Position numbers and translations under genes: made by a program. Source: an uncultured Bacteroidales bacterium (GTDB lineage Bacteria > Bacteroidota > Bacteroidia > Bacteroidales > F082). Taken from it: 64,000 nt of DNA. Below the pieces are notes generated by a model, which worked only from the letters and a program-made list of their open reading frames with translations, had not been told where the DNA came from and ran no database searches. This document shows positions 14,506 through 32,681 of the stretch, in pieces. Within the stretch, counting starts at the first letter, position 1, and every line of letters starts with the position of its first letter. The DNA is taken from contig CAMYVD010000001.1 of assembly GCA_947302205.1 (NCBI GenBank), positions 1 through 64,000 on the forward strand, in the 5' to 3' direction.

Positions 14506-16311
14506 ATGAAGACCACGAAAATAAAGTTATTGTCGCCGGCCAAGAACCTCGAGGTCGGTTTGGCTGCCATCAACCATGGCGCCGATGCCGTGTATATCGG
14601 TGGGCCAGCCTTTGGTGCCCGTGAAAAAGCGGGTAATAGCATCAAGGATATTGAGCAGCTTTGCCGTCATGCTGCCTTGTTTGACGCCAAGGTGTACGTG
14701 ACCCTGAACACCTTGCTTTACGAAAACGAAAAGGAAGAAGCCCGTCAGTTGGCTTGGGATTGCTGGAATGCCGGCGTGGATGCCTTGATTGTGCAGGACC
14801 TTTCGCTGTTGGAACTCGACCTACCGCCCATTCCGTTGCATGCCAGCACGCAATGCGACAACCTTACGGTGGAACGGGTGCAGGAACTGGAGCGTTTGGG
14901 CTTCGAGCAAGTGGTGTTGGGCCGAGAGTTGAGCATCGACCAGATCAGGGAAATCAGGCGACAGACCACCGTGCCGTTGGAGTTTTTCGTTCACGGCTCA
15001 TTGTGCGTCAGCCATAGCGGACAGTGCTATTTGAGCCAACATATCGGCAACCGCAGCGCCAATCGCGGAGCCTGTGCCCAGCCCTGTCGCCTGCCCTGGG
15101 ATTTGCTTGACGCCGAGGGCAAGGTGCTCGTCAAAGGTCGGCATTTGCTTTGCCTGAAAGACCTGAACAATAGTGCCAATCTCGAAGCATTGCTGGATGC
15201 GGGCATCACCTGTTTCAAGATCGAGGGACGGTTGAAGGATGCCGACTATGTGAAGAACATCACGGCGTTTTACCGTCAGCGGCTGGATGCCATTTTTAAG
15301 CGTCGGCCCGAATATGCCCAGGCGTCACAGGGGCACTGTACCTACACGTTTGAAGTCAACCCTGAGAAATCGTTCAACCGTGGCTTTACCGATTATTTCA
15401 TCCATGGCCGCCAGCCGAATATCGGTTCGCCGTTTACTCCGAAATCCATGGGCGAGTACATCGGCGAGGTGAAATGGTGCAATTCCGTGCAGATGGAGCT
15501 GTTGACGAATCAAACCTTGCATAACGGCGATGGATTGTGTTTTTTGAATTCCGAACACGAATTGGTAGGCATCCGGGCGGATGTCGTCAATGGCAACAAG
15601 GTTTCGTGCAACCGTCCCCATGGCGCCCAGCGTGGTTCAAGGATCTATCGCAACTACGACATTGAATGGCAACGCCAAGTGGAGGCCTCCACAGGCAATA
15701 GGAAAATTGATATTGAGTTGGTACTGGAAGATGTCCCAGAAGGTTACCGAATGATGGCGTTCCGTCATTGCGAGGAACATAGCGACGAAGCAATCCAGTT
15801 TGGGTCAAGTTGGATTGCTTCGGCCAAAGGCCTCGCAATGACGATAGCTACTCCAAAGATTACAGCGAACAACCCCGAAAAAGCCCTTGAGAACATTCGC
15901 AAAAAGGCCCTCCAGTGGGGCGAAACCATCTATAACCCAGTTAGTTTGGAAATCCGTTTCTCCCAGCCTTATCTCATTCCGGCTTCGGTGATCGGTGAGA
16001 TGAAACGGGGATTGCTTGCCCAAATAGAAGCGAGTGCGTCATTGCGAGGAGCTTTAGCGACGAAGCAATCCAACCAGACCCTAACAGAGCCGATTCGGGT
16101 TGGATTGCTTCGCTACGCTCGCAATGACGAGCCCGATGCCATCCCCACCCACTTGATGACTTGCCACCACTGCATCCGTTATGCCAACGGCCTTTGCCCA
16201 AAAGAAACGGGAAAGCCGGTGGGCCCACTATTCATTCGCAATGGCGAAAATACCTTCCGCTTGGAATTCGATTGCAAGAATTGTCTCATGTACGTTTGTG
16301 CCTTGGCTTAA
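14506..16311 (+). CDS. U32 family peptidase/hydroxylase-like protein with two in-frame palindromic inserts
   Basis: 601 residues from the ATG at 14506, just after the -7 box. The N-terminal TIM-barrel-like region has AKNLEVGLAAINHGADAVYIG, and the U32 signature is EFFVHGSLCVSHSGQCYLS near residues 158-176. The C-terminus has a cysteine cluster (CHHC, then NGLCP, then CKNC and a final C) able to bind iron-sulfur. U32 proteins include collagenase-like peptidases and the RNA/ubiquinone hydroxylation factors RlhA, UbiU/V and TrhP, so 'peptidase' may be a misnomer. Two palindromic repeats (27 and 31 codons) interrupt the C-terminal half without breaking the frame: RHCEEHSDEAIQ.. at residues 420-446, and SLRGALATKQSN..RYARND near 511-541. 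Three bases separate the stop from the ABC exporter gene. Confidence 0.88.
   Translation: MKTTKIKLLSPAKNLEVGLAAINHGADAVYIGGPAFGAREKAGNSIKDIEQLCRHAALFDAKVYVTLNTLLYENEKEEARQLAWDCWNAGVDALIVQDLSLLELDLPPIPLHASTQCDNLTVERVQELERLGFEQVVLGRELSIDQIREIRRQTTVPLEFFVHGSLCVSHSGQCYLSQHIGNRSANRGACAQPCRLPWDLLDAEGKVLVKGRHLLCLKDLNNSANLEALLDAGITCFKIEGRLKDADYVKNITAFYRQRLDAIFKRRPEYAQASQGHCTYTFEVNPEKSFNRGFTDYFIHGRQPNIGSPFTPKSMGEYIGEVKWCNSVQMELLTNQTLHNGDGLCFLNSEHELVGIRADVVNGNKVSCNRPHGAQRGSRIYRNYDIEWQRQVEASTGNRKIDIELVLEDVPEGYRMMAFRHCEEHSDEAIQFGSSWIASAKGLAMTIATPKITANNPEKALENIRKKALQWGETIYNPVSLEIRFSQPYLIPASVIGEMKRGLLAQIEASASLRGALATKQSNQTLTEPIRVGLLRYARNDEPDAIPTHLMTCHHCIRYANGLCPKETGKPVGPLFIRNGENTFRLEFDCKNCLMYVCALA
15763..15843. 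repeat. Palindromic element 1 inside the U32 gene (81 bp)
   Basis: Perfect 13-bp terminal arms (15763-15775 and 15831-15843, CGTCATTGCGAGG and its complement) and perfect 11-bp inner arms (15787-15797 and 15811-15821) can fold into a long hairpin. The length is 27 codons, so the frame is kept. It belongs to the dispersed repeat family whose translation begins RHCEE(R/H)SDEAIQ, familiar from intergenic regions of many bacteria. Confidence 0.88.
16037..16129. repeat. Palindromic element 2 inside the U32 gene (93 bp)
   Basis: Same family as element 1: 12-bp terminal arms (16037-16048, 16118-16129) and 15-bp inner arms (16061-16075, 16098-16112). The length is 31 codons. It is translated in a different frame of the element (SLRGALATKQSN... 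then LLRYARND), so it was inserted independently and is also tolerated. Confidence 0.88.
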
Positions 16312-32610: not shown

Positions 32611-32617
32611 TTTATGT

Positions 32618-32667
32618 ATTTCACAAGCTGGTGTTTCACAACTTTGTGAATCACAATCTTGTGAAAT
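32618..32667. promoter_or_regulatory. Nested inverted repeats (TTCACAA) upstream of the AAA ATPase
   Basis: Outer 10-bp arms are ATTTCACAAG (32618-32627) and its exact complement (32658-32667). Inner 7-bp arms TTCACAA/TTGTGAA (32635-32641, 32644-32650) are separated by two bases. This gives four half-sites in mirror order, ending 14 bp before the -7 box. No T-run follows, so an operator is more likely than a terminator. Confidence 0.55.
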
Positions 32668-32681
32668 ATCAAAAATCATTG

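Follow-up and report, generated by a model that had tools for sequence, protein, structure and literature searches.

The locus and its two elements

The window analysed here is a stretch of 64,000 nucleotides from an uncultured Bacteroidales bacterium (GCA_947302205.1, contig CAMYVD010000001.1, positions 1 to 64,000 of the forward strand), whose assembly, G000, spans 2.2 Mb in 82 contigs and is 88.6% complete. It carries a U32 family gene with two palindromic repeats inside its reading frame. Among the best 80 of 557 encoding stretches (on named contigs), the close relatives of this gene come from MAGs of ruminant and other herbivore guts, 'bacterium F082' among them; F082 is a genus label in GTDB. 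The features are as follows.

14506..16311, + strand: U32 family gene (Peptidase_U32 plus DUF3656), an ORF of 601 codons plus stop; Pfam PF01136 (1e-69) and PF12392 (2.2e-10)
15643..16032, + strand: DUF3656 region, residues 380-509 by its Pfam match, split by element 1
15763..15843, + strand: element 1, an 81-bp palindromic repeat, residues 420-446 (RHCEEHSDEAIQFGSSWIASAKGLAMT); slot 1, at a beta-hairpin turn flanked by strands 413-420 and 443-448; dispersed copies, hairpin
16037..16129, + strand: element 2, 93 bp, of the same family in another codon phase, residues 511-541; slot 2; pLDDT <50 at 523-541

Element 1 starts at base 1 of codon 420 and element 2 at base 2 of codon 511, so that the two are read in different codon phases, and the ORF runs unbroken through both with the peptides that a first-pass annotation of this DNA had quoted; its central observation, that one U32 gene contains one repeat twice in frame, at lengths of 81 and 93 bp, holds. 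The arms, which it had described as long and perfect, are interrupted: element 1 has a perfect outer arm of 13 nt and an inner arm of 17 nt at 88%, and element 2 has an outer arm of 12 bp and an inner arm of 18 nt at 94%. The elements have exact stretches of 13-18 nt in common, and each is predicted to fold more stably than its shuffles (element 1, -46.1 kcal/mol, z -9.2; element 2, -45.5 kcal/mol, z -7.7; for each element, none of 200 shuffles equalled it). A strict inverted-repeat scan of the whole window returned three hairpins, including element 2 and missing element 1, which is called from the comparison of the elements and the fold-versus-shuffle test. A 52-bp near-perfect hairpin also lies at positions 32617-32668 of the window, where the scan has no long frame.

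The AlphaFold2 model of the U32 protein has a mean pLDDT of 85.1 and a pTM of 0.87. Runs of at least three residues with pLDDT <50 occur only at 424-435, 437-440 and 523-541, all within the inserts, and account for 35 of the 38 residues below that level (the other three are scattered); the low values may also come from a lack of relatives aligned there. In the model the insertion sites look like permissive loops, as the tolerant loop proposed by the first-pass annotation would have it, and slot 2 lies at the junction ahead of the C-terminal Cys-rich part. A PDB sequence search with the protein gave no match, and a PDB fold search gave partial matches, among which 5d88, a U32 protein, ranked eighth. 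Cysteines 167, 174, 190 and 194 are invariant among 40 aligned sequences, and we take them to have a role at an iron-sulfur site. The gene is intact, and because the dN/dS of its core is low (0.038-0.076 in seven pairs, with dS >1 in 5 of the 7), we regard it as no pseudogene; the substitution pattern points to purifying selection on the core.

Dispersed copies in the genome

A search of the 2.2-Mb assembly with the repeat, here called family A, gave 26 matches (a figure that counts the place of the query itself, and some places twice), which reduce to 18 separate places once the halves of one element are joined; the count leaves out copies that have diverged too far for the query to match. 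In-frame positions within recognised genes account for 4 of the 18, namely the two in U32, one in a DcuC-like transporter and one in AroA, and a fifth copy lies in an unassigned frame:

L142: copy of 96 bp in the DcuC-like transporter (Pfam 1.2e-92)
L139: half element of 36 bp in AroA (Pfam 9e-64)
L145: fifth copy, inside a 162-aa frame with no NCBIfam match

The remaining 13 lie outside recognised genes, as judged by frame positions alone rather than by family searches for each. The DcuC-like and AroA copies are the further in-frame insertions for which the first-pass annotation had proposed searching the genome, and together with the absence of insert 1 from outgroup homologues (see below) they bear out its comparison with Rickettsia palindromic elements. 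Its remark that both lengths are multiples of three is correct for the 81-bp and 93-bp elements and does not extend to the family, other copies of which measure 76, 77 and 83 bp among others. Openness is unsupported as a mark of adaptation to coding: open frames total 27 in 12 of the 18 copies, versus 23.1 expected from dinucleotide shuffles. With most copies outside recognised genes as well, the suggestion that the element is adapted to coding insertion is unsupported. In a sample of the phylum, 15 of 296 genomes, G000 included, contain the family A pattern (reversed control, 0), and the family A peptide is present in 8 of 60 genomes of the genus.

Shared slots in the U32 orthologues of the genus

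U32 orthologues were found in 57 of the 60 searched genomes (a count that includes second U32 paralogues). At site 1, 12 homologues from outside the genus (L106-L108 and L110-L118) have a short turn from which the 27 residues are absent, and 19 genus members too are without a repeat-like insert there, as judged by eye. The exact absence from homologues that the first-pass annotation proposed to look for is thus found for residues 420-446, with the insert in 0 of the 12 outgroups, and fails at site 2, where a longer and different segment of about 40 residues (YLGN...FY..HG) is present in the outgroups and in some members of the genus. That segment does not occur in the near relatives of the window, and a repeat stands in its place.

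We cut sites 1 and 2 from 69 genus genes (the window's gene plus 68 named loci; one site 1 and one site 2 are undelimited, and the site 1 cut of L073 starts too early) and searched their DNA against 107 loci supplying 659,629 non-U32 bases, at a match threshold of E<=1e-3. Site 1 matches non-U32 DNA in 36 of 68 cases and site 2 in 29 of 68, and 52 of the 69 genes match at one site or the other; some of the comparison loci had been chosen for their family A content, which inflates the number of loci matched by that family. Of 826 control windows taken elsewhere in the gene, 40 match: 27 of these represent a fragment of the gene start in L051, and the other 13 represent further insertion places (one of these, in L081, is doubtful). 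The L051 fragment, at 1455-1512, is a second stretch like the U32 gene start, upstream of an intact gene. When whole genes were matched and this fragment was left out, 51 of 69 genes gave matches, falling into six position clusters plus one stray at 560-569. Reading of the slots revealed more insert-like sequence at residues ~360-379 and, in L074 and L091, close to the C-terminus. Residues ~360-379 make up a further slot in L042, L052, L059, L060, L065, L069, L084 and L101, with E-like inserts (family E is defined below) and with another recurring peptide, VADCVPAVGK...NCEDAV.

None of the 69 genes has a stop over the length read, two of them being read to a contig end. L071 ends inside repeats. 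Unrelated peptides occur within one slot across the genus. On these comparisons the same sites in related species hold other repeat families, a point absent from the first-pass annotation.

Repeat classes and their turnover

Sorted by eye, the occupants of site 1 fall into nine classes: family A (CGTCATTGCGAGG...), a close variant, family E (GTAG...CTAC), the arrays B, C, D and F, and two single cases. In many cases the slot is occupied by a tandem array with a 7-base unit, frequently with an inverted array after it (L044, L104, L040 and L043 in U32; L190-L194 in the DcuC-like gene). Identity at lag 7 is 0.48-0.72 in the array inserts tested (with the exception of L054 site 2, at 0.38) versus 0.16-0.19 in A and E, and the repeated tail of L071 has a period other than 7. 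Gain or loss of one 7-base unit inside a gene would shift the frame.

Parsimony on a FastTree phylogeny (445 core columns, 81 tips, several supports low) requires at least 17 changes among these by-eye classes at slot 1, versus a minimum of 36 when the labels were shuffled 200 times; class is therefore inherited and yet turning over. Several pairs of genes already differ in slot family at high core DNA identity (L048/L078, 0.94; L094/L059, 0.94; L051/L098, 0.84).

Families A and F are largely limited to the subclade whose slots carry them, the family F peptide occurring in 9 of 60 genus genomes. The family E pattern occurs in 36 of 60 genomes, with no match in G000, G004, G008, G020, G023 or G034 and one in G010. 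In the genomes that hold E in slot 1, the pattern counts (which can include the slot copies themselves, as at G022:C75) are 12 in G021, 8 in G022, 6 in G016, 6 in G029, 3 in G018, 1 in G002, 1 in G024, 0 in G007 and 0 in G012. Slot occupant and genome repeat content thus agree in tendency only.

Other genes with slots

Repeats occupy one loop of the DcuC-like transporter in 6 of 30 orthologues (G000, G023, G010, G020, G004 and G008), and the loop is ordinary in 16 genus orthologues and in 8 from other genera. At the DNA level the inserts of L189, L190, L191 and L194 match families of the U32 slots, that of L193 matches dispersed DNA in 7 loci, and that of L192 matches its own locus and a single other one; the same comparison gave no match for two ordinary loops. 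Identity at lag 7 is 0.59-0.80 in 5 of the 6 inserts. In AroA, G000 has half of a family A element and G020 has another CGTC-type element, which matches the site 2 insert of the L078 U32 gene at 94% over 36 nt; the other orthologues are variable at the slot, without a clear repeat.

Nine orthologues of the GYDIA GHMP kinase (NCBIfam) include one with family A, in G020, and three with E at the DNA level (L051, L060 and L087); L099 has a weak match only, and a repeat family was assigned in none of the remaining orthologues. A radical-SAM/DUF6873 protein has one such junction, at which 18 orthologues divide into 10 with repeat matches at the DNA level, 2 with peptide-only matches, 4 that are ordinary and 2 that are ambiguous. 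Family F lies between the middle and C-terminal domains of a FakA-like protein and, elsewhere, between Fer2 and Pyr_redox domains. In an asd-like gene of G020 (L287, G020:C8), the frame changes across a family F array (frames 904-1650 and 1530-2015), which may be a real break, variation in array length or a MAG error.

With the loci chosen for copies set aside, merged repeat-like intervals number 58, and 33 of them lie in frames of at least 200 aa, a figure that includes shadow frames and counts at least one place twice (L039 and L151 overlap). When the window's frames were scanned for gaps against parts of G020 (48 frames matched) and G034 (47 frames matched), shadow frames included, repeat-like inserts were seen by eye only in U32; the scan detects gaps of at least 9 residues in close species, and the further affected genes came from repeat matching.

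Relation to known repeats

Rickettsia palindromic elements (RPEs) are described as palindromic repeats that lie in frame in many unrelated genes and are apparently tolerated, and genes hit twice are known (Ogata et al. 2000, 2002, as cited in PMC10969869 and PMC3733652). It is from Rickettsia that palindromic repeats in frame are best known. The repeats of G000 resemble them in their in-frame insertion into unrelated genes (U32 twice, the DcuC-like transporter and AroA). They differ in host group and in that the occupant of a given slot changes family from species to species, heptamer arrays included; the likeness is one of description.

For REPs tagged GTAG or CGTC, Di Nocera et al. 2013 (PMC3733652) report copies inside genes of several species, genes hit twice and occurrence in Bacteroidetes; the paper also gives CGTC REPs as having no dedicated transposase and recB of two Xanthomonas species as carrying different REPs at about the same site. 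CGTC REPs have CGTC (or TGTC or CCTC) at one end and a short unpaired tail that is mostly CCA. In agreement with this, CGTC opens both elements of the window and those listed copies in which this end is preserved, and family A half elements end in ...GCAATCCA (the CCA tail). Unlike them, the family A monomer is without the stem of 8-9 bp and loop of 4-5 bases: the 29-nt monomers form a 5-bp outer stem and in those of 35-36 nt the stem is not formed (z -0.1 to 0.6), the hairpin forming between two inverted halves. Family E shares GTAG ends with the GTAG REPs and differs in that its tag is paired, GTAG with CTAC, in a perfect 28-nt palindrome. The genus-scale refilling of slots observed here has no description in the accessible part of PMC3733652.

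The enterobacterial RU-1, RU-2 and RU-3 repeats are small and mobile, have open frames and lie inside annotated genes (Delihas 2007, PMC2759123, in its accessible part). Compared by description, they are alike as small repeats within genes and unlike in their enterobacterial hosts and their length of 103-168 bp. A literature search (titles and abstract openings, with a few full texts) found no description of refilled shared slots in Bacteroidales. In-frame REPs and RPEs, two per gene included, are thus already known in many bacteria; what is new here, within the literature searched, is that shared slots appear to be refilled genus-wide by unrelated families, inverted heptamer arrays included.

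Origin of the slots

We consider it quite probable that non-autonomous repeats spread in these genomes, that in-frame copies in permissive loops and junctions survive as translated linkers, and that the slots are filled, eroded and refilled. Elements 1 and 2 would be copies of a non-autonomous palindromic repeat, REP-like or MITE-like, spread with other such repeats by some mobilising activity; gene-breaking copies would mostly be lost, and those in frame at a permissive loop or domain junction would be kept and translated as extra linker. Each protein would offer few permissive positions, and since the same few positions are permissive, they would act as slots, filled, eroded and refilled by the lineage's own repeat families. 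We infer the translation into protein, the mode of repeat movement, the near-neutrality of the linkers and the selection behind their clustering.

Several observations bear against this reading or go beyond it. G007 and G012 hold E in slot 1 with no E pattern match in the genome, and we have trimmed our confidence for this disagreement and for the by-eye sorting of the classes. The frame change in the asd-like gene of G020 speaks against frame keeping, which is itself partly ascertained because genes were recognised through long frames. The replacement of ordinary sequence at U32 site 2 and in the DcuC-like loop is more than plain insertion predicts.

As to the mobilising activity, RAYT (PF01797) was not found in G000 and is present in 28 of 36 searched genomes; compared by eye, the hairpins at 20 RAYT loci include none of family A and none of E. 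RAYT as the driver of family A is thus unsupported. RAYT loci of relatives (L126, L130, L132, L134 and others) have nearby hairpins or inverted repeats unlike the slot families.

Directed exchange, in which one repeat is swapped for another through hairpin recombination or a palindrome-targeting enzyme and slots persist as cassette sites, would fit the pairs L048/L078, L094/L059 and L051/L098, which hold different families between nearly intact flanks, and the repeats of the DcuC-like loop in six related species where the other 16 genus orthologues keep the ordinary loop. We think this unlikely: the occupants tend to match their own genome's repeats, for which insertion and selection account, and neither an enzyme nor, in an unsystematic search, a shared target motif was identified. 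A broader form, in which inherited slots at fixed positions have palindromic or heptamer-array repeats actively swapped, so that the enzyme linkers turn over with the genome's repeats, we rate slightly higher, as improbable. That the inserts are kept for useful peptides, or that the element is adapted to coding, would agree with the frame being kept in all 69 genes of the genus as far as they were read; it is very doubtful given unrelated peptides in one slot, open frames that are not in excess and a model that is disordered at the inserts. Removal or skipping of the hairpins at the RNA level, so that they never reach the protein, is hard to credit: the hairpins are very stable in the mRNA sense, but skipping requires no open frame, yet all 69 genes are free of stops over the length read, and an Rfam scan of the U32/element region gave only three matches, all far below gathering scores. 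Although the near relatives are all MAGs and repeats can break assemblies (as in L071), an assembly artefact or pseudogene is next to inconceivable with the frame open across dozens of separate assemblies and dN/dS low.

With survival of in-frame copies of spreading repeats as the preferred reading, the slots amount to an experiment set up and replicated by nature, which bears on where in a protein sudden inserts of about 10-40 residues are tolerated. They also offer a view, across many species and several genes of one gut Bacteroidales genus, of how selfish DNA turns into protein linker, and a warning that such inserts can pass for fast-evolving domains.
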